A stretch of 64,000 nucleotides of DNA. It comes from Bacillota bacterium. Its GTDB lineage: Bacteria; Bacillota; UBA4882; UBA10575. The DNA lies in contig DUQR01000027.1 of NCBI GenBank assembly GCA_012837715.1, forward strand, positions 1 to 64,000, given 5' to 3'. The position numbers were made by a program, and so were the translations under genes. How positions within the stretch are numbered: the stretch's first letter is position 1; every line of letters begins with the position of its first letter. Positions 43,111 to 53,271 of this stretch are shown here, in pieces. The notes beneath the pieces are model-generated. The model was not told the DNA's origin and ran no database searches. It saw nothing but the letters and a program-made list of their open reading frames with translations.

Positions 43111-45123
43111 CTACTTCAATTTCGTGCAAATCTTTTCCGTAAAGATCTTTTCTACCCGATCCGGCGTGACCCCATTGATGATCTCATCATCCACTTTGAT
43201 CACGGGGCCTTGCTCGCATTTTTCCAGACAGAAAGTGGCATGAAGATTGATGCGCTCTTTAAGCTCTGAATCTGCGGCCAATTTCATAAATTTCTGCAAC
43301 GTATCATAGGCCCCATTCAAATAACAGCAGGTCCCGACGCAAACGGCAATATCCAATTGGTCTGGCTCTTGGCTGGTCATTAACTTAATCTCTTCCCCGC
43401 TAATCCGCCCCCGGTTGGAGTAAGCCGTGTGGAGGGCATCATGGGCCGCGTCACTGTTGGGCTTCGCCAGCCACCGCTCATAGAATTTACCTACCACCGG
43501 ATTATCCTGGGCTTTCCGCAACTGGGAAAGTTTATCGGCATTATAGATTCCCTTGGCCCGTTCCTTTTTCGTCTCCATCGTCGGGGAGATCGGTTGTCCG
43601 GCGCCACCGACACAGCCACCGGGGCAAGCCATGACCTCAATAATATGGTAATCGGCCTTGCCTTCCTTGATCTCCTGGAGAAGAGCTTTAGCGTTTGCCA
43701 AACCATGGACCACCGCCACTTTAATCTCCTGACCGGCAATCTCCACCGTCGCTTCTTTCCGGTCGGCAAAACCCCGCACTGCTTCAAAGTTGATCTGGTC
43801 AATGGGTTGACCGGTTACAAACTCATGGGCGGCCCGAAGCACGGCTTCCGCCACCCCGCCGGTGGCGCCAAAGATGACACCGGCGCCGGTCGTAAAGCCA
43901 AAAGGCGTATCAAAAGATTCAATATCCAACTGGTCAAAGACCAGCCCCGCTTCGCGAATCATCCGGGCCAGTTCCTGGGTGGTCAGGACCAGATCCACAT
44001 CCGGAACCCCGTCGGTGGCAAACTGGGGCAAAGCCGCCTCATATTTCTTCGCGGTACAGGGCATGATCGAGACCACGATAATATCTTCGGGTTGCTTCCC
44101 GATCTCCTGCGCCCAGTATTTCTTCACCAGCGAACCGAACATCTGTTGGGGGGAACGGCAGGAAGAAAGGTTTTTCAAATATTCGGCGGCATTGTGCTCA
44201 GCATACTTAACCCAGGCCGGGCAGCAGGAAGTAAACTGGGGCATTTTTTCTCCCTTTTGCAACCGGGTGATAAATTCGTGGGTCTCCTCAATCACCGTCA
44301 AATCGGCGGTGATCGAAGTATCAAACACCTTATCAAAACCTAAGCGTTTTAGTGCCGCTACCACTTTCCCGGTAACGATCTCACCGGCCGGTAAACCGAA
44401 TTCTTCACCCAAAGCCACCCGCACCGCTGGCGCCACCTGCACAACCACCATCTTCTCCGGATCATGAATGGCCGCCCACGCCCGGTCGGTATCATCTTTG
44501 ACCACAATCGCCCCGGTCGGACAAACCGCACCGCACTGACCACAATTAACACATTCCACATCGGCCAGGTTTTTATGGAAAGCCGGCGTCACCACCGTAT
44601 TGGACCCCCGGCCGGAGAAATCCAGGACACCAATGCCTTGCACTTCGGCGCACATCCGGACACAATCGCCACAAAGGATACACTTGTTCGGATCCCGCAC
44701 CAGGGAGTGGCTGGAATGGTCCAGCGGCAGTTTGACATCCCGCTCCCCGAAGCGGATTTTTTTCACACCAAACCGGTTGGCCAACTCCTGCAGTTTACAA
44801 CTGCCGTTCCGGTCACAGGTTGTACACTCCCGGTCATGGTTGGCCAGTAACAGTTCAAGCACCGTCCGCCGGACCCGTTGCACCCGCGGACTGTTGGTCA
44901 GGATCTTCATACCCGGCGCCGGCGGGGTGGAACATGAAGCCATAATCCCCCGGCCTTCCACTTCCACTACACACATCCGGCAAGCCCCGTACAGGCTCAG
45001 CTCGGAATGATAACAGAAAGTGGGGATCTCAATCCCGATTTTTCTGGTTAATTCCAAAATATTCTTTTCCCCATTCAACTCCACCACTTGGCCGTCGATG
45101 AGTACCGTGTTTTTCTGTTCCAT
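43111..45123 (-). CDS. hydA: [FeFe] hydrogenase catalytic subunit HydA
   Basis: HydA makes H2 from protons and is the catalytic subunit of a trimeric, probably electron-bifurcating hydrogenase (ferredoxin plus NADH). An N-terminal [2Fe-2S] domain (C37, C48, C51, C64) comes first, then a His-ligated cluster (HDREC, TTCDRNGSC) and two [4Fe-4S] clusters (CILCGDCVRMC, CVNCGQCGAVC). The H-cluster motifs are TSCCPAW (298-304), MPCTAKKYE (354-362) and ACPGGCVGGAG (C500, C504). A C-terminal thioredoxin-like [2Fe-2S] domain (CVGTCC and CLEKC) makes 670 residues, as in Thermotoga-type HydA. It is the last gene of the Rex-controlled operon. Maturases are not in the window. Confidence 0.97.
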   Translation of the reverse strand: MEQKNTVLIDGQVVELNGEKNILELTRKIGIEIPTFCYHSELSLYGACRMCVVEVEGRGIMASCSTPPAPGMKILTNSPRVQRVRRTVLELLLANHDRECTTCDRNGSCKLQELANRFGVKKIRFGERDVKLPLDHSSHSLVRDPNKCILCGDCVRMCAEVQGIGVLDFSGRGSNTVVTPAFHKNLADVECVNCGQCGAVCPTGAIVVKDDTDRAWAAIHDPEKMVVVQVAPAVRVALGEEFGLPAGEIVTGKVVAALKRLGFDKVFDTSITADLTVIEETHEFITRLQKGEKMPQFTSCCPAWVKYAEHNAAEYLKNLSSCRSPQQMFGSLVKKYWAQEIGKQPEDIIVVSIMPCTAKKYEAALPQFATDGVPDVDLVLTTQELARMIREAGLVFDQLDIESFDTPFGFTTGAGVIFGATGGVAEAVLRAAHEFVTGQPIDQINFEAVRGFADRKEATVEIAGQEIKVAVVHGLANAKALLQEIKEGKADYHIIEVMACPGGCVGGAGQPISPTMETKKERAKGIYNADKLSQLRKAQDNPVVGKFYERWLAKPNSDAAHDALHTAYSNRGRISGEEIKLMTSQEPDQLDIAVCVGTCCYLNGAYDTLQKFMKLAADSELKERINLHATFCLEKCEQGPVIKVDDEIINGVTPDRVEKIFTEKICTKLK

Positions 45124-45125
45124 GC

Positions 45126-47009
45126 TTACCCCTCCTTAATGGCCTTAAACGGACAATTCTCAACACAAGCGCCGCACTTAATACACTTCGTCTGGTCAAT
45201 GGTATAAGGTTTTTTCAGTTCGCCGCTGATCGCCTGAACCGGACAGGCGCGGGCACACTTGCTACAGCCTTTGCATTTTTCCGGGTCGATTGTATACCCT
45301 TTCAGGGCGGAACAGACCCCGGCCGGACATCTTTTCTCCACCACATGGGCGATATATTCATCTTTAAAGTATTTTAGCATCGTTAACACCGGGTTCGGAG
45401 CGGTTTTCCCTAAACCGCACAACGATCCGTCCCGGACGGCCTCCGCCAGCTCTTGGAGGAGCTCCACATCTTCCGGCCGGCCCTCGCCATCCACCGCCCG
45501 TTGTAGGATCTCCAGCATCCGCTTGGTCCCTTCCCGGCAGGGCACACATTTCCCGCAGGATTCATTCTGGGTGAAATTCATGAAGAAACGGGCCACTTCC
45601 ACCATACAAGTGCTTTCATCCATGATCACCAAGCCACCAGAACCGATCATCGCCCCGGCTGCTTTTAATGAGTCAAAATCCAAGGGTAGATCCAGATGTT
45701 CCTCGGTCAGGCAACCGCCGGACGGTCCACCGATCTGGACTGCTTTAAACTTCTTACCACCCCGGATCCCACCGCCAATCTCAAAAACCACCTGGCGCAG
45801 GGTGGTCCCCAAAGGAACCTCAATCAAACCGGTATTGGCCACCTGGCCGGTGATGGCAAAAGTTTTCGTGCCGGTGTTTTGATCGGCGCCAATCTCACTA
45901 AACCAAGCGGCGCCCTTCACAATAATCTGGGCAATATTGGCAAAAGTCTCTACGTTATTGATCAAGGTCGGTTTACCCCAAAGCCCCGATTGGGCCGGAA
46001 AGGGCGGTTTCGGCGAAGGCATCCCCCGTCGACCTTCGATCGAAGCTAGAAGGGCGGTCTCTTCCCCACAGACAAAAGCGCCCGCGCCTTCTTTAATTTT
46101 CAGCTCAAAGTTAAATCCAGTGCCCAAAATGTTCTCGCCGAGCAGACCGTACTTCTTCGCTTCCGCAATTGCCGTTTTCAATCTTTGCACGGCCAGTGGA
46201 TACTCGGCCCGGACATAAATATAACCTTCATCGGCCCCAATGGCATAACCGGCGATGATCATGCCTTCCAAGACCCGGTGGGGATCCCCTTCCATTAGAC
46301 TCCGGTCCATAAAAGCGCCCGGGTCTCCTTCGTCACCATTACAAACCACATATTTTTTCGGCCCCTCTTCAATGCGGGTTAATTCCCATTTTCGTCCGGT
46401 AGGAAACCCGCCACCCCCCCGACCGCGCAGGCCGGAGTCGATAATTTCACGACAAACCTCCGCGGGCGTCATCTGGGTCAAGGCCCGTTTTAAACCTTCA
46501 TAGCCATCGTTGACCACATATTCGCGAATATCTTCCGGGTCAATCTGACCACAATGGGCTAACGCCGTGCGTTGTTGATGATGGTAAAAGGGAATCTGGT
46601 GTTCCTCCGCGTACACTTCTCCGGTCAATGGATGACGATACAACAGACGTTCGACCGGCTTTCCACCGCTGACCAAAGCTTCTACTATCTCCGCCGCATC
46701 TTCGGCTTTCACTTTTGTGTATAGAATCCCCGACGGTTCCAAGCGGACTAAAGGTCCCATCTCACAAAAACCATGGCAACCGCTTTTTACCACGGCAACG
46801 CCGGTCTTCTCCTCTTCAAGTAAGAGATCGACGGTGACATATTCGCCCCGCGCTTCCACTTCTTGCTTTAAAGCCGCATAGACCTCAAGGGATCCGTTGG
46901 CAACACAACCGGTCCCGGCGCAAACCAGAATCCGCGCCTTTTCCCGGTCAAAACCCTGACGCCACTGGTTTTTTCGTGCTTCCAATTGGTTTAGGGTCTC
47001 CTTATTCAT
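45126..47009 (-). CDS. hydB: Hydrogenase subunit HydB (NuoF-like flavoprotein)
   Basis: HydB binds FMN and NAD(H) and is the diaphorase part of the hydrogenase. Its N-terminal thioredoxin-like [2Fe-2S] domain has CAGTGC and CHGFCE. The NuoF core shows GRGGGGFPTGRKWE and CNGDEGDPGAFMDR (FMN/NADH), an SLBB part, and the cluster motif CGKCVPCREGTKRM. A C-terminal pair of [4Fe-4S] motifs follows: CKGCSKCARACP and CIKCGACVENCP. I use ATG at 47009, 9 bases after AAAGGAGG. It overlaps the hydC stop by 8 bases (ATGAATAA), so it is translationally coupled. Only 2 bases separate it from hydA. Confidence 0.97.
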   Translation of the reverse strand: MNKETLNQLEARKNQWRQGFDREKARILVCAGTGCVANGSLEVYAALKQEVEARGEYVTVDLLLEEEKTGVAVVKSGCHGFCEMGPLVRLEPSGILYTKVKAEDAAEIVEALVSGGKPVERLLYRHPLTGEVYAEEHQIPFYHHQQRTALAHCGQIDPEDIREYVVNDGYEGLKRALTQMTPAEVCREIIDSGLRGRGGGGFPTGRKWELTRIEEGPKKYVVCNGDEGDPGAFMDRSLMEGDPHRVLEGMIIAGYAIGADEGYIYVRAEYPLAVQRLKTAIAEAKKYGLLGENILGTGFNFELKIKEGAGAFVCGEETALLASIEGRRGMPSPKPPFPAQSGLWGKPTLINNVETFANIAQIIVKGAAWFSEIGADQNTGTKTFAITGQVANTGLIEVPLGTTLRQVVFEIGGGIRGGKKFKAVQIGGPSGGCLTEEHLDLPLDFDSLKAAGAMIGSGGLVIMDESTCMVEVARFFMNFTQNESCGKCVPCREGTKRMLEILQRAVDGEGRPEDVELLQELAEAVRDGSLCGLGKTAPNPVLTMLKYFKDEYIAHVVEKRCPAGVCSALKGYTIDPEKCKGCSKCARACPVQAISGELKKPYTIDQTKCIKCGACVENCPFKAIKEG

Positions 47010-47532
47010 CTGCTGCATCCTCCTTTTCCAACTGATCAAGGATAATCGTAATTGCCTCCGGCGTCATTTGCCCGTATATTTTGTCATTGATCATCACAAC
47101 CGGGGCTAAACCACAAGCGCCAAGGCATGAAACAGTCTCGACAGTGTAACGGAGATCATCGGTGGTTTTTTTCTTTCCTGATAAATTAACCCGTTTCTTA
47201 ATGGCTTCCAACACCGGCTCGGACCCCCGGACATGACAAGCAGTCCCGTCACAAACCTTAATCACATATTTCCCCTTAGCTTCTAAAGAAAATTGGGCGT
47301 AAAAGGTAGCCACCCCGAATACACTGGCTGGTGAAAGCCCCAGGGCTGTTGCAATATAGGTTAGAATCTCCTCCGGTAAATACCTGTACTCTTCCTGGAC
47401 TTCCTGCAGGATGGGGATGAGAGCCGATTGGGAACGGCCTAAACGGTTGATAATTTCATTGACTTTTTCAAACTTCCGTTGATAGTTGGTGTTACGTTCC
47501 TCCTTCGGCGCCCCGTTTACTTCTTGTTTCAT
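47002..47532 (-). CDS. hydC: Hydrogenase subunit HydC (NuoE-like)
   Basis: The 176-residue subunit carries one [2Fe-2S] cluster in a thioredoxin-like fold, with ligands in CDGTACHVRG and CLGACGLAP. The preceding helical part (IINRLGRSQSALIPILQEVQ, then YLPEEILTYIATALGLSPASVFGVATFYAQF in pieces) is typical of NuoE. It passes electrons between HydB and HydA. AAGGAGA lies about 9 bases before the ATG. It overlaps hydB. About 39 bases separate it from the SpoIIE-type phosphatase gene upstream. Confidence 0.95.
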   Translation of the reverse strand: MKQEVNGAPKEERNTNYQRKFEKVNEIINRLGRSQSALIPILQEVQEEYRYLPEEILTYIATALGLSPASVFGVATFYAQFSLEAKGKYVIKVCDGTACHVRGSEPVLEAIKKRVNLSGKKKTTDDLRYTVETVSCLGACGLAPVVMINDKIYGQMTPEAITIILDQLEKEDAADE

Positions 47533-47571: not shown

Positions 47572-48723
47572 CTAAAAATAAACCATCTCCACTTTTTTCC
47601 CCTTCTCTTCCAGGGTCTCGGCGATCTCCTTGACCACTTGCATTTTCAGGGCTAAATTCAGAGGCAAATCCGGGTTCTGATGAGCCGGGTTAAGCGCCTT
47701 CCCCACTAAAAATTTGATGCGATCACTCTCTAAAAAAATCTGGGCCAAAAGGGAAACGGCATTTTTCCGCCCCAAGTACTTTTTGCGGGCTTCTTCATCC
47801 TTCAACGCCTCTAAAGTCTTGCTTAAAGTGATAATTCCTTCGGTTACTAAATCCGCCCCCCGTAACCGGCCATAAGGGGGAACCTCTGGATCCAAGTTCT
47901 TCAGATCCACTTTAATATCGCTTCCCCACTCCCGGGCGATAATTGAACCGGTGGTTCCGCCACAAATTACTTTACTCCCCGGTTCCTCCCGGATAATCCG
48001 GGCAACTTTAGCGTCATCGGCCTTGTTTTGTGGCGGGCCTACCGCCACCGTCAAAGTCCGGGGCGTGCGGATTTTTAAAATTAAAGCGGTGGTGTCATCC
48101 CCCGGTCGCGAAGCATATAATTGGCCACAGGCGGTAATCAACCACTTACTCAAGGTTTGGGCATCGGGGTGTAGATTAACCAATTTTTCAATATAGGCGC
48201 TTACTTCTTCCCAACGCCACCCCAGATTTAAAACCCCCCCGATTCCGGCATGGATCACCCCGTCGGAAACAGTCACTAAAACATCACCAGGGGCTACTTG
48301 GAAACGGCTCTCCCGGATCGTCCGTCCGGCAATTTCCCGTTCGGACCAATTAAGGGAGAAAAGTTTGCCCGCCCGGATAAAGATGAGCGCCGGGTTATCA
48401 AACTCCGCCACATATCCCTGGCCCTCCCGGTCGATCCGGATAATCGTAAAAGTAGCATAGGCCAGATTCCTTTTTTGGCAGACCGGCAGGGTATTTGAGA
48501 CGGTTTCAATGGTCTCCTCCAAGGTGGCGCCGTTCTTCACCATCGTTGCGATGATCTTCGCCGTTAACGTGGCGAGGATATTGGCTTTCACCCCACTTCC
48601 TAAACCGTCGGCCAGGACGGCCACTACCGTTTCGGGGGTACGGACCACCTCCACATGGTCGCCGCATAATTCTTCACCGAATTTAGCCAGGCTTGCCCAT
48701 TCGGTATCGATGTAAATACTCAT
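47572..48723 (-). CDS. SpoIIE-type PP2C phosphatase with an uncharacterised C-terminal domain
   Basis: The first 220 residues form a PP2C/SpoIIE serine phosphatase domain: metal sites in LADGLGSGVKAN and VSDGVIHAG, and the last Asp pair in GDDTTALI. The C-terminal 165 residues are a second domain with the motif SKVICGGTTGSIIAREWG and ending in EMVYF; I do not recognise it. SpoIIE-type phosphatases reverse phosphorylation of STAS-domain proteins or other serine-phosphorylated regulators; no partner kinase or STAS gene is in the window. It overlaps the PAS/hydrogenase-like gene by 4 bases (ATGA), implying coupled synthesis and joint function in hydrogen or redox signalling. Confidence 0.9.
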   Translation of the reverse strand: MSIYIDTEWASLAKFGEELCGDHVEVVRTPETVVAVLADGLGSGVKANILATLTAKIIATMVKNGATLEETIETVSNTLPVCQKRNLAYATFTIIRIDREGQGYVAEFDNPALIFIRAGKLFSLNWSEREIAGRTIRESRFQVAPGDVLVTVSDGVIHAGIGGVLNLGWRWEEVSAYIEKLVNLHPDAQTLSKWLITACGQLYASRPGDDTTALILKIRTPRTLTVAVGPPQNKADDAKVARIIREEPGSKVICGGTTGSIIAREWGSDIKVDLKNLDPEVPPYGRLRGADLVTEGIITLSKTLEALKDEEARKKYLGRKNAVSLLAQIFLESDRIKFLVGKALNPAHQNPDLPLNLALKMQVVKEIAETLEEKGKKVEMVYF

Positions 48724-50462
48724 TGGATGCTCCCATCCCCGTTTTTAATTAGTTTAATTAGTTTTGAAAGGAGGACTTTGGTTTCCGCCGTCGTTTCCCC
48801 AAGCAACCCGGCGATCTCTTGCGCCACGCGCATCTGTTTATCGATAACTTCCTGCGCCTTCGTCAAAGTTTCACCTTTCATCAGCGCCAACTTCTCCCGT
48901 TGTTCATGTTCTTTCGTAATATCAACAAAGATCCCAATCAGGACATCGTCGGCTTCCGCATAGAAAATCGCTTGCCAAGTAACAATCCCATAAGCCGGAT
49001 AGGCCACCTCACCGCAGACCAATTCTTTGGTCCGTAATGCTTCTTTAAAGGAGGTCGGATCAATTAATAGGTCTAAGTTCTTCCCCACCACCTGGTCTTG
49101 ACGGCAGAGGAATTTCTGTTCAGCGGCGGGATTAACCTCTAAAATCTGTAAACTACTATCCACCACTAAAATAGCATTGGGAGTCATACTACAAATCAAG
49201 TTCGCCCGGGATTCGGCTTTAGCCCGCATATAAGGGATACACATATCAAGCTCGGCCATTCCTTCTAGCACGGCAATGGCTTTCTCCCGGCAGGAATTAT
49301 AGCCGCAGGCCCCACAGTTGAGTTCATCTTCCGGTTTGGACTTACCGGTTTTACTTAGCACCCGGCGGATTGCTTCTTCGCTATGGGTTGTGGCCTTTAA
49401 CTTCCGCTTGGCATAGGTGGTGAAAAGGGAAGGAACCGGTGGATAGTCTTTATCCGCTGGAGTTTGCGCACCGGAGTCCGTTCCGTCGGCGCTCTCCCGC
49501 CGGCTCCGGGTATAAGCTAACAAGCGTTGCCGCCGGCGATAAAGGCTTAGACCGCTCTCCAACCCCGGCCCCATTAAACACCCGCCCCGGCAGGCTAAAA
49601 GCTCGACCAAACGGAGACCGGCTTTGACTTCATCGAAACGGGCCAAAAAATCAATCACCGCTTCCAGACCGTCGATGGTTATGACTTCTTCGGCCAGTAA
49701 ATCCGTATTCAGCCGTGCCGTCTTGGCTAAACCACCGGGGGTGGGGAAAATCCGGGCGGTCCCGCCACTGCGATCAAACTTCCCGGCCGTCTCCCGGGCC
49801 GGATCAATCCCTTCCTCCGCCAACATGGCTTTTAGTTCCTGGAAAGTCAAGACGGCATCAATACTTCCTTGAAGTTCCGCCCGGCTATACTCATCCTTTT
49901 TCCCAATACAAGGTCCGATAAAAACCACCTTTAAATCGGCGCCGTAAACGCTTTTCAAGAGCCGGCCATGGGCAATCATCGGCGAAACCACTGGCGCCAG
50001 GTATTGAATAAGCTGGGGATAATACCGTTCAATCAGGTTGACCACCACCGGACAGCAACTGGCGATTACCGCTCTTCCTTGCTGCTCCTCTACCAGTTTC
50101 TGATGCTCCCCCGCCACCAACTCCGCTGCTTCCGCCGTCTCGGTCACATAGGCAAAACCCAGCTTGTGAAGGGCGGAGACCAACCGGCCATAGTCGGAAA
50201 ACTCGTCCAAGGCCACGAAGGAAGGAGCCAGACTAACCGCCAGCTTCTGTTTGGCGAGGAGAAAGTCACGGACTAACCCTTTTCCATCCTGCACCTTCTT
50301 GGCCTGTTGCGGACAGACCAGTACACAATGGCCATCGGCGATACAATGGCTCTCCACTACTTCCGCATGTCCACCGGTAACCCTAATGGCTTTAACCGGA
50401 CAGGAACGGACACACTTGTAGCAGTCACGGCAACTAGCCTCAATGGTCGAGATGATCCCCAT
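48720..50462 (-). CDS. Hydrogenase-like PAS-domain sensor (HydS type)
   Basis: The 580-residue protein has two N-terminal [4Fe-4S] motifs (CRDCYKCVRSC, C40-C50) and a hydrogenase H-cluster-like domain. Its motifs are SCCPVVV (135-141), GPCIGKKDEY (183-192) and ACRGGCLMGPG (290-300). A four-cysteine cluster domain (CGACGYNSC, C383-C391, plus C408) and a PAS domain (about 412-530) follow. The cysteines for an H-cluster are kept, but the usual Met of the second motif is Gly, as expected for sensory hydrogenases. There is no kinase domain, so its output probably runs through the coupled SpoIIE phosphatase. ATG at 50462; it overlaps the upstream [2Fe-2S] gene by 23 bases. Confidence 0.9.
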   Translation of the reverse strand: MGIISTIEASCRDCYKCVRSCPVKAIRVTGGHAEVVESHCIADGHCVLVCPQQAKKVQDGKGLVRDFLLAKQKLAVSLAPSFVALDEFSDYGRLVSALHKLGFAYVTETAEAAELVAGEHQKLVEEQQGRAVIASCCPVVVNLIERYYPQLIQYLAPVVSPMIAHGRLLKSVYGADLKVVFIGPCIGKKDEYSRAELQGSIDAVLTFQELKAMLAEEGIDPARETAGKFDRSGGTARIFPTPGGLAKTARLNTDLLAEEVITIDGLEAVIDFLARFDEVKAGLRLVELLACRGGCLMGPGLESGLSLYRRRQRLLAYTRSRRESADGTDSGAQTPADKDYPPVPSLFTTYAKRKLKATTHSEEAIRRVLSKTGKSKPEDELNCGACGYNSCREKAIAVLEGMAELDMCIPYMRAKAESRANLICSMTPNAILVVDSSLQILEVNPAAEQKFLCRQDQVVGKNLDLLIDPTSFKEALRTKELVCGEVAYPAYGIVTWQAIFYAEADDVLIGIFVDITKEHEQREKLALMKGETLTKAQEVIDKQMRVAQEIAGLLGETTAETKVLLSKLIKLIKNGDGSIQ

Positions 50463-50733
50463 CACGCTTCCCCTTCCTCCCGGCTTCGTCTACGTCGGCC
50501 AGGACATGTTGGTAAAAAAAGGCGTCAATATTCTCTTCCGTCAGGGCCGTATAAAGACACCCTTCGAAAGAAACCGTAACCCCGGCCTGACACTGACCCA
50601 AACAAAAACTGGCTTTCAGTTCCACCCGGTCGGTAAGCCGATGTTCTGCCAAAAGCTGTTGTAATCTTTTAATGACGGCGTAAGATCCGAGTAGATGGCA
50701 AGAACTCCCCACACAAACCGCGAGTGTTTTCAT
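50440..50733 (-). CDS. Small thioredoxin-like [2Fe-2S] ferredoxin (NuoE-like domain)
   Basis: The 97-residue protein has the four cysteines of a thioredoxin-like [2Fe-2S] protein in CVGSSC near residue 7 and CLGQCQAG near residue 45. Domains of this kind feed electrons into HydA/NuoF-type complexes, and here one is free-standing as the first gene of the hydrogenase operon. AAGGAGGGG lies 4 to 8 bases before the ATG. A Rex operator lies 26 bases upstream of the start. It overlaps the PAS/hydrogenase-like gene and may supply that sensor with electrons. Confidence 0.92.
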   Translation of the reverse strand: MKTLAVCVGSSCHLLGSYAVIKRLQQLLAEHRLTDRVELKASFCLGQCQAGVTVSFEGCLYTALTEENIDAFFYQHVLADVDEAGRKGKRDGDHLDH

Positions 50734-50758: not shown

Positions 50759-50780
50759 ACATGTGAAATATTTCACATGT
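50759..50780. promoter_or_regulatory. Rex operator in front of the hydrogenase operon
   Basis: The centre CATGTGAAATATTTCACATG (50760-50779) is a perfect palindrome that extends by one base on each side. It closely matches the Rex consensus TTGTGAAATATTTCACAA. It lies between the rex stop and the first gene of the hyd operon, so NADH/NAD+-dependent repression of hydrogenase is expected. Confidence 0.88.
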
Positions 50781-50793
50781 CGGGATGAAAAAA

Positions 50794-51432
50794 TTACCCG
50801 AACTTCCTTGCTAAATGATGGGAAAGGGTTAAAATCCCCACCACCAGGTCTTCGTACTGCACAATAACATTTTTGGGGACCACCAACCGCACCGGGGCGA
50901 AATTCCAAAGGGCTTTAAACCCTGCTTGAACCGCCATGTTGGCCACCGTCTGCGCCACCGCGCCCGGAACGGTCAACACCGCGATTTCCATCCCCAATTC
51001 TTCTTTCTGACTAGCCAATGCGGTTAGCGGAAAGACGGTTAATTGCCCACTAGTTGTTCCCCATTTGGATTGGTCAATATCGAAAAGGGCTGCCACTTCC
51101 AGACCGTGCTGTTTTAAACCGGTATAGCCGGCTAAAGCCAGCCCCAGCTTTCCGGCGCCAATAATCGCTAACCGGCGTTTTTTGTCCATCCCCAGAATCT
51201 CTTTGATTTTGGCCAGGAGATAGGCAACGTCATAACCGGCCCCGCGAATCCCCAGACTACCAAAGTAGGAGAGATCCTTCCGAATTTGACTGGAAGTAAC
51301 CCCAACCTTCCGCGCCATCTCCTCCGAGGAAACCAGCGCAATGTTTTGGTGGTTATACTCGGTTAACACCCGAAAATACATGGGAAAACGGGAAATAGTC
51401 GCTTTCGGAAACATCACTAGTCCTTCTGGCAT
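50794..51432 (-). CDS. rex: Redox-sensing transcriptional repressor Rex (copy 1)
   Basis: Rex releases DNA when NADH rises. The 212-residue protein has an N-terminal winged helix (VSSEEMARKVGVTSSQIRKDLSYFG) given here as VTSSQIRKDLSYFG, and a Rossmann domain with IIGAGKLGLALAGY. The C-terminal part has WNFAPVRLVVPKNVIVQ. I chose ATG at 51432 because a sigma-A promoter and a Rex site lie between it and the longer open frame's start at 51483. The gene sits directly upstream of the hydrogenase operon and has an operator in its own leader. A second, divergent Rex is encoded 1.2 kb away. Confidence 0.95.
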   Translation of the reverse strand: MPEGLVMFPKATISRFPMYFRVLTEYNHQNIALVSSEEMARKVGVTSSQIRKDLSYFGSLGIRGAGYDVAYLLAKIKEILGMDKKRRLAIIGAGKLGLALAGYTGLKQHGLEVAALFDIDQSKWGTTSGQLTVFPLTALASQKEELGMEIAVLTVPGAVAQTVANMAVQAGFKALWNFAPVRLVVPKNVIVQYEDLVVGILTLSHHLARKFG

Positions 51433-51443
51433 CGGTATACCCC

Positions 51444-51461
51444 TTGTGATTATTTTCACAA
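51444..51461. promoter_or_regulatory. Rex operator in the rex leader (autoregulation)
   Basis: TTGTGATTATTTTCACAA matches the Rex consensus half sites TTGTGA and TCACAA with 6 bases between. It lies 10 bases downstream of the -10 box and 11 bases before the rex start codon. Confidence 0.88.
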
Positions 51462-51471
51462 TCTCAAATTC

Positions 51472-51500
51472 ATTGTAACCCATGATCGCAACTTTGCCAA
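51472..51500 (-). promoter_or_regulatory. Sigma-A promoter of rex (copy 1)
   Basis: On the minus strand TTGGCA and TACAAT are separated by 17 bases. The start point would be near 51465, so the Rex operator covers the first transcribed bases. Confidence 0.75.
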
Positions 51501-52562: not shown

Positions 52563-52591
52563 ATAATACAATATTTTATCTTTGCTGTCAA
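52563..52591 (-). promoter_or_regulatory. Sigma-A promoter of the Lys-Glu tRNA genes
   Basis: On the minus strand a consensus TTGACA and TATTAT are separated by 17 bases. The -35 box overlaps the last codons of the second rex gene. Confidence 0.85.
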
Positions 52592-53271
52592 CAGTTGTTT
52601 TGTAATTTTTTTTGGATCTTTGATGCTTCTTCCCCCTGTTTAAGCTGGAAAGACAGAATCATCAGACTCTCCCCAAGGTGAACATGTTCTACACAAACGT
52701 TCGCGGGAACCTTGAGGGAGACCGGCGCAAAATTCCAGATCCCTTTGACCCCATGCCGGACCAGGAGATCGGCAATTTCCTGGGCCACCACCGCTGGTGT
52801 ACAGATGATTCCGATCTCGGCTGGGGCCGTTGTCAAGTAAGCCCCGAGCTCCCGAACATCTTTAACCGTCAAGTTATTAATGGTCTTCCCGATCACCTGC
52901 GGGTTTTGATCAAAAAGGGCTTCAATAATAAACCCCCGCCTCGCAAAATTATGATAGTTGGCGATGGCCCGTCCCAGATGACCGGCGCCGACCAACACCA
53001 TTTTCGTTTCGGTATTAATTCCTAAAATTTTGTTGATCTCCGCTAAAAGATAACTAACCCGATACCCATAGCCCTGCTGACCAAAGGAACCAAACAGGCT
53101 CAAATCTTGGCGCACCTGGGAAGCATTGATCTTCATCTTCGCCGCCAATTCCCGGGAAGAGATCCGTTCTACTTCTTTCGCGGCCAGATCCGACAATAAG
53201 CGCTGATAGCCGGGTAATCTTTTGACCACGGTTAAAGGAATCCCTTTGCACCTCGTCTTTTCTGTAGACAA
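52588..53271 (-). CDS. rex: Rex-family redox repressor (copy 2)
   Basis: The 227-residue protein has the Rex winged helix (ELAAKMKINASQVRQDLSLFG, visible as INASQVRQDLSLFGSFG) and Rossmann motif LVGAGHLGRAIANY. It also has WNFAPVSLKVPANVCVEHVH in two family segments. It starts with TTG 6 bases after GGGGGTGG. Compared with copy 1 it is only moderately similar in the wing and C-terminal region. Its own leader holds a palindrome with TTGTTA half sites, unlike the TTGTGA sites near copy 1, so the two probably have different targets. Confidence 0.93.
   Translation of the reverse strand: MSTEKTRCKGIPLTVVKRLPGYQRLLSDLAAKEVERISSRELAAKMKINASQVRQDLSLFGSFGQQGYGYRVSYLLAEINKILGINTETKMVLVGAGHLGRAIANYHNFARRGFIIEALFDQNPQVIGKTINNLTVKDVRELGAYLTTAPAEIGIICTPAVVAQEIADLLVRHGVKGIWNFAPVSLKVPANVCVEHVHLGESLMILSFQLKQGEEASKIQKKLQNNC

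Follow-up and report, generated by a model that had tools for sequence, protein, structure and literature searches.

To what a sensory [FeFe] hydrogenase passes its signal has been a question since H2 sensors of this type were proposed. The locus described here raises that question in a particular form. Within the 64,000-nucleotide stretch of a Bacillota contig that we analysed (DUQR01000027.1, positions 1 to 64,000; hereafter the window), the gene for a PAS-bearing hydrogenase, hydS, lies between those for a [2Fe-2S] thioredoxin-like protein and a SpoIIE-type PP2C phosphatase. If the three products form one signalling unit, we need to ask by which parts sensor and phosphatase would communicate, what the sensor would read and on what the phosphatase would act.

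A phosphatase-linked, sensory-type hydrogenase and its relatives

The order in the window is rex, a Rex-type palindrome, the [2Fe-2S] gene, hydS, the phosphatase gene and hydCBA (Table 1). Adjacent genes of the unit overlap: the [2Fe-2S] gene shares 26 bases with hydS, which in turn shares four (ATGA) with the phosphatase gene. Open reading frames and Pfam/NCBIfam assignments confirm the overlapping tandem upstream of hydCBA that the first-pass annotation had described, and the arrangement is not a matter of chance because the identical order recurs in relatives. The [2Fe-2S] gene is directly 5' of hydS in 90 of 96 related loci, and rex is found at the equivalent position in most relatives of the family. 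The four-base overlap had also been taken to imply a fixed ratio of sensor to phosphatase; this was an over-reading, since the gap between the two genes ranges from -50 to about +150 bases in relatives, -4 being the commonest value. HydA scores 815 bits against a cut-off of 765 with NF040763, the NCBIfam model for the group A6/NADH-dependent type.

Table 1. Positions of genes, domains and sites at the locus, in window coordinates
Feature	Position	Strand	Basis and remarks
rex, redox-sensing repressor, first copy	50794..51483	-	NCBIfam/Pfam; directly 5' of cassette
Perfect palindrome ATGTGAAATATTTCACAT, Rex-operator-like	50761..50778	.	consensus match; between rex and cassette
[2Fe-2S] thioredoxin-like protein gene (HfsA position)	50440..50733	-	PF01257, 3.9e-7
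hydS, PAS-bearing sensory-type [FeFe] hydrogenase	48720..50465	-	GTG start (alternative ATG 50462)
HydS H-cluster domain, residues 74-300	49566..50246	-	PF02906, 1e-54
HydS C-terminal 4Fe-4S domain, residues 382-411	49233..49322	-	PF04060
HydS PAS domain, about residues 428-517	48915..49184	-	PF00989/PF13426; AF2 strands 431-515
HydS C-terminal helical module, 43 residues, VIxKQMRVAQEIAxLLGETTAETK	48744..48872	-	conservation, co-occurrence
SpoIIE-type PP2C phosphatase gene	47572..48723	-	Pfam SpoIIE, 4.4e-18
PP2C/SpoIIE catalytic domain, residues 1-221	48061..48723	-	PF07228, 4.4e-18
Phosphatase C-terminal domain, residues 222-383	47575..48060	-	no Pfam family; motifs GPP..DD, CGGTT, DLVTEG, NPAHQ
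hydC, NuoE-like, bifurcating-type hydrogenase	47002..47532	-	Pfam/NCBIfam
hydB, NuoF-like	45126..47039	-	Pfam/NCBIfam
hydA, catalytic [FeFe] hydrogenase, NADH-dependent group	43111..45123	-	NF040763, 2.9e-245

HydS has the features of a group C hydrogenase, namely an H-cluster domain, a C-terminal 4Fe-4S domain and a PAS domain; the Pfam matches comprise 4Fe-4S repeats (two sites), Fe_hyd_lg_C (1e-54), PF04060 (2.6e-10) and PAS (6.8e-6). Pfam and NCBIfam reveal no kinase domain, in agreement with its initial description as a sensor that lacks one. Counted from the GTG start, the H-cluster cysteines are C137, C138, C186, C292 and C296; their retention had been reported under numbers one lower, which count from the next codon, an ATG. 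The usual methionine of the second motif (L2) is indeed glycine, Gly184, and the L3 methionine, absent from the earlier description, is likewise replaced (Leu290). Among 91 HydS homologues, the four cluster-ligand cysteines are kept in 89-90 and all four cysteines of the C-terminal 4Fe-4S domain in 90, while the Met353 position shows the replacement typical of sensory enzymes, with Gly in 86 and Met not among the residues listed. Sensory [FeFe] hydrogenases are generally described as losing Cys299 (PMC8163306, PMC10055695), as in TmHydS and TamHydS, but the window HydS has not lost it. Cysteine is kept at this position (C137) in the window protein and in 52 of the 91 homologues, with Ala in 19 and Ser in 14, and in all 25 window-class members compared by cassette type. 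We also considered selenocysteine encoded by an in-frame TGA in hydS of three genomes; no TGA lies inside the coding match, the sole internal stop in that check being a single TAG codon (residue 70, L167), and we rejected the idea.

The phosphatase contains the metal-binding aspartates and DG(L/M)G motif of PF07228, as aligned to SpoIIE structure 3t91, and D22, D39, G40, D154, D209 and D210 are invariant. It is not a sporulation SpoIIE, with the membrane and regulatory domains of that protein: TIGR02865 gives 37.9 bits against a cut-off of 490.8, and the catalytic part alone is matched. Its structural model begins directly with the catalytic fold, an N-terminal regulatory domain being absent, and after the catalytic domain there follows a further domain of residues 222-383. 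Pfam gave no match to this C-terminal domain up to E = 10, and the PDB no credible sequence match; an 'Interferon' match in the PDB (E 0.028) we judged to be due to chance. In a fold search aimed at this domain, the best 50 PDB matches were all PP2C enzymes. Its model is alpha/beta and mostly confident, with the invariant motifs placed mostly after strands, in what would resemble a ligand pocket.

Judged from architecture and gene partners, the window unit is of the HydDB [FeFe] group C3 kind, of which a linked serine/threonine phosphatase is a feature. Group C3, in which a HydS with PAS likewise adjoins such a phosphatase, is listed by HydDB as phosphatase-linked (putative) and 'may sense H2 and regulate processes via serine/threonine phosphatases' (PMC5037454). 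The portion of that source dealing with the group offers no mechanism and mentions neither a C-terminal module, nor an extra phosphatase domain, nor near-obligate pairing. The hfsABC(D) genes of Thermoanaerobacterium and C. thermocellum have an equal order of small hydrogenase-related protein, PAS hydrogenase and serine phosphatase, but there hfsABC is followed by the ferredoxin hydrogenase gene hfsD, whereas NADH/bifurcating-type hydCBA comes next in the window (PMC5707799, PMC11837493); HfsC is described as a serine phosphatase homologue (PMC11837493). In R. albus, too, a sensory group C hydrogenase, HydS, and a putative Ser/Thr phosphatase stand in a hydrogenase operon, although the partners there are a ferredoxin hydrogenase and an alcohol dehydrogenase, and a phosphatase-linked H2-sensing scheme like that of HydDB has been proposed for them (PMC6776011). 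HydS of T. maritima shares with the window protein the H-domain, the C-terminal 4Fe-4S domain, the PAS domain, a place in the operon of another hydrogenase and the change from Met to Gly in L2. It differs in lacking C299, whose equivalent is kept here as C137, and in having Ser rather than Leu in place of the L3 Met (PMC10055695). The signalling output through a PP2C phosphatase, which the first-pass annotation had called not well described, had therefore been proposed as a scheme by HydDB in 2016 and in the R. albus and Thermoanaerobacterium papers; the remark stands in so far as that literature contains no biochemical test of it.

Sensor-phosphatase pairing and the C-terminal module of HydS

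HydS is 5' of the phosphatase in all 29 window-class copies (window and second copies counted), most commonly with the four-base overlap. A scan of species genomes yielded at least 584 relatives, of which we examined the best 80 loci; these are mostly from Firmicutes, and also from records titled Planctomycetota, Desulfomonilaceae, Calditrichales and Flexilinea. HydS is directly 5' in 80/80 of these public loci, gaps in ORF calling having been checked by tblastn. Six loci that seemed unpaired (L077, L102, L126, L138, L144 and L147) all contain HydS by tblastn, and an apparent HydS-phosphatase fusion in L114 (a 575-aa frame) is an out-of-frame reading of separate genes. In 299 genomes of the phylum, the phosphatase is present in 91, as 107 copies, and HydS adjoins 106 of these, one pair being split over two contigs. 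The sole orphan (L179) has lost about 10 residues just after DGLG, in the switch-helix region.

Six window-class genomes carry two cassettes. For both genes, each second-type copy is most closely related to second-type copies from other genomes, and no exchange of partners has therefore taken place. What adjoins the pair varies: it may be hydABC, the gene for an HfsD-like hydrogenase or only rex, and some pairs have none of these. HydS and the phosphatase are nearly inseparable, and this near-obligate pairing is the conserved co-occurrence that had been put forward as a check on the proposal that a sensory hydrogenase is coupled to a phosphatase. That proposal is supported by the pairing, by the kept cysteines and invariant catalytic aspartates, and by the hfsA and hfsB phenotypes considered below.

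In the 91 complete pairs, conservation within HydS is highest in the last helical stretch, residues 536-572. Positions conserved at 90% or more make up 51% of the module, compared with 13% of the H-domain and 1% of the PAS domain. We then searched 299 genomes spread over the phylum with a profile of the 43-residue module, and used raw counts because P values are inflated by species relatedness. The module occurs in 105 copies, 104 of which are followed by the phosphatase within 100 bases and one of which is at a contig end; in this profile search none of the 299 genomes had a module without a phosphatase. A phosphatase without a detectable module was found in two genomes, one being that of the orphan.

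SpoIIE and RsbP resemble the window system in the PP2C catalytic domain, the metal ligands and the control exerted by a neighbouring regulatory helix or PAS domain. They carry the regulatory part on their own chain, whereas in the window it would be provided by another protein; the window phosphatase differs further in its additional C-terminal domain (PMC5468089, PMC3183031). SpoIIE is activated when its long regulatory helix packs on two switch helices (PMC5468089). Because SpoIIE needs such a helix, and the window phosphatase has no N-terminal regulatory domain, we infer that the HydS module acts as a helix in trans. It probably contacts the phosphatase as the equivalent of the SpoIIE regulatory helix, a reading for which we draw on its conservation, its strict co-occurrence with the phosphatase and the SpoIIE structures. 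Conservation of the module could alternatively reflect dimerisation of HydS.

The AF2 model of the HydS monomer has pLDDT below 50 over most of the module, with the remainder mostly well predicted. Low confidence of this kind is compatible with folding on a partner and is no proof of it.

The C-terminal domain of the phosphatase has a distribution of its own. It occurs as a stand-alone protein of 156-159 residues directly 3' of hydC-hydB-hydA in three species of one genus (L194-L196), with neither HydS nor the phosphatase alongside. We saw no further clear stand-alone copies in 398 genomes; other short frames with the domain seem to be pieces cut off at contig ends, or phosphatase genes that have been split. 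Since the stand-alone copy sits behind hydCBA in that genus, the domain appears to be tied to the bifurcating hydrogenase itself, and would be either a docking part or a ligand sensor. To our knowledge, the literature on this class describes neither the near-obligate pairing, nor the module confined to these pairs, nor the stand-alone copy of the domain that is linked to the hydrogenase.

Control of the unit, its signal and its target

The explanation that best accounts for the locus as a whole, and that we consider fairly probable, is a signalling unit of the group C3 kind in which a module in trans controls a PP2C phosphatase. The [2Fe-2S] protein, HydS and the phosphatase would work as one. 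HydS would bind an H-cluster and read H2 or a coupled electron state, and the resulting change would travel through the C-terminal 4Fe-4S/PAS part to the 43-residue module. The module would contact the separately encoded PP2C and shift its switch helices, as the fused helix of SpoIIE does, and the C-terminal domain of the phosphatase would bring in a substrate or a second ligand. H2 as the signal, the contact between HydS and the phosphatase, the sign of the control and the target are the parts of this scheme that we infer.

The quantity of the unit is presumably set separately. The palindrome ATGTGAAATATTTCACAT is the sole Rex-consensus match in the window, with two mismatches to TTGTGAAATATTTCACAA and 0.02 such matches expected by chance, and Rex-like sites are found 5' of 28 of 89 related cassettes, against about 1% by chance. 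As the operon lies behind this predicted Rex-type site, the NADH/NAD signal probably sets the amount of the unit made, and the signal read by HydS would set its action.

Genetic data on homologues bear on the scheme in two ways. In T. saccharolyticum, deletion of hfsA or hfsB leads to more ethanol and adhE transcript, whereas deletion of hfsC or hfsD leads to more lactate (PMC5707799); HfsA and HfsB therefore act together, and HfsC differently, which speaks for the scheme. A strain deleted for hfsABCD in which hfsD alone is overexpressed also makes high ethanol (PMC11837493). Because hfsD suffices for this without hfsABC, the phosphatase is dispensable for the high-ethanol end point, which counts against our preferred explanation.

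As to the target, the phosphatase may act on the products of its own operon, with HydA/B/C, HfsD or Rex being switched by Ser/Thr phosphorylation. We regard this as a real possibility, though we lean against it. The genes most often found beside the pair are hydABC, that of an HfsD-like hydrogenase, or rex; some cassettes (L060, L057) consist of HydS, PP2C and rex alone in tight tandem; and the stand-alone C-terminal domain lies directly behind hydCBA in L194-L196. Nevertheless, the neighbours differ between cassettes while the pair persists, so no single neighbour can be the universal target, and the genome has only one clear Hanks-type kinase, encoded beside a PrpC-like phosphatase just outside the window.

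Another reading concerns the signal: HydS would sense electron pressure (ferredoxin/NADH through the [2Fe-2S] protein) rather than H2, and the H-cluster site would be a redox element. The 90 of 96 loci with a [2Fe-2S] gene, the resemblance of hfsA to hfsB deletion (PMC5707799) and a Planctomycetota locus (L114) that keeps the module despite altered residues beside the cluster all point this way. We find it rather doubtful, given that 89-90 of 91 homologues retain every H-cluster ligand and that relatives from groups C and D both bind H2 and turn it over (PMC10055695, PMC8163306).

Returning to the group C3 unit, it can be taken a step further, to a SpoIIE-type phosphatase whose helix is carried in trans by an H2-binding sensor and whose C-terminal domain docks on the bifurcating hydrogenase; reversible phosphorylation would then act on the hydrogenase or on one of its bound partner proteins. 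This version in full is speculative, and we would be somewhat surprised if all of it were to hold.

A SpoIIE-type catalytic domain also brings to mind partner switching, as with SpoIIE, RsbU and RsbP, in which the phosphatase would dephosphorylate a STAS anti-anti-sigma factor and so free a sigma factor for hydrogenase or fermentation genes. An RsbW-like ATPase gene is indeed found beside a second, group-D-like HydS in the window's own genome (L065 9364-9867). The first-pass annotation had suggested a search for nearby STAS or anti-sigma genes, but among the recurrent neighbours of the pair in 75 loci there is no STAS, anti-sigma or kinase gene, and the partners typical of RsbU/V/W systems, a STAS protein and an anti-sigma kinase, are thus no recurrent part of the neighbourhood. 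The only free STAS gene of the genome is of the SpoIIAA type and adjoins a SpoIIAB-type kinase gene. For the phosphatase's role in partner switching, the genome also encodes a separate large SpoIIE homologue. For these reasons dedicated partner switching is less likely, and we hold it to be improbable here.

That the genes are merely co-transcribed, with no joint function, is very hard to credit: a shared operon alone is no proof of interaction, but across several phyla the pair persists whatever the hydrogenase context, and also where there is none, and nothing else has the conserved module.

Implications for H2 sensing in fermentative bacteria

Within the phylum of the window, phosphatase-linked systems are widespread, being present in 91 of the 299 genomes that we sampled, and their homologues affect the split between ethanol, acetate and H2 in biofuel and rumen bacteria. 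Two short segments with clear limits, the HydS module and the phosphatase's C-terminal domain, allow direct tests of the steps from sensor to phosphatase and from phosphatase to target.

Atypical phosphatase genes

Among the 107 copies of the phosphatase, only that of L179, a relative's locus, lacks an adjoining HydS. It carries a deletion after the DGLG motif, in the switch-helix region, as if the enzyme were decaying or had been released from control. In two further genomes (L168 and L170) the phosphatase appears as two overlapping frames that diverge near residue 240, the boundary of the catalytic and C-terminal domains; this reflects either gene splitting or a sequencing error.

Genes around the HydS–phosphatase pair

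The two rex genes of the window lie within 2.5 kb of each other and share ∼39% identity; in two relatives (L057 and L060), a gene for a relative of the second copy directly follows the HydS–phosphatase pair. The PrkC-like kinase just past the window is the only clear Hanks-type kinase in this genome.

In three distant genomes the phosphatase is followed by a TnpB-like gene of ∼500 codons, of which no close homologue was found among the 199 phylum genomes searched. The first RuvC Asp is substituted in all three proteins and the Glu in two, which makes them look nuclease-dead. The gene may have been domesticated to regulate the operon in an RNA-guided manner.

Features discussed in the text
Feature	Position	Location
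rex, first copy	50794-51483	window
rex, second copy	52588-53271	window
PrkC-like kinase, with adjoining PrpC-like phosphatase	C10:64825-66348	own genome, just past window
Phosphatase without HydS	L179 2587-3726	
TnpB-like gene, Cas12f-type zinc finger	L073 9160-10716	directly 3' of phosphatase
TnpB-like gene, Cas12f-type zinc finger	L076 7110-8603	directly 3' of phosphatase
TnpB-like gene, Cas12f-type zinc finger	L098 9170-10690	directly 3' of phosphatase
Second HydS and gene run	L065 9026-12309	own genome, contig C52
Sensory hydrogenase–MCP fusion	L064 8519-10462	own genome, contig C20

Other putative H2 sensors of the genome

Genes for an RsbW-like ATPase, two DRTGG proteins and a PHP protein, together with hydC/hydB, share a gene run with that of a second HydS, which is group-D-like and lacks PAS. 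Here the HydS-type sensor adjoins a kinase-like protein, whereas in the window it adjoins a phosphatase. A third putative sensory hydrogenase carries a fused MCP domain for chemotaxis signalling, like HydDB group C2. With these two besides the HydS of the window, the genome therefore encodes putative H2 sensors of three kinds.
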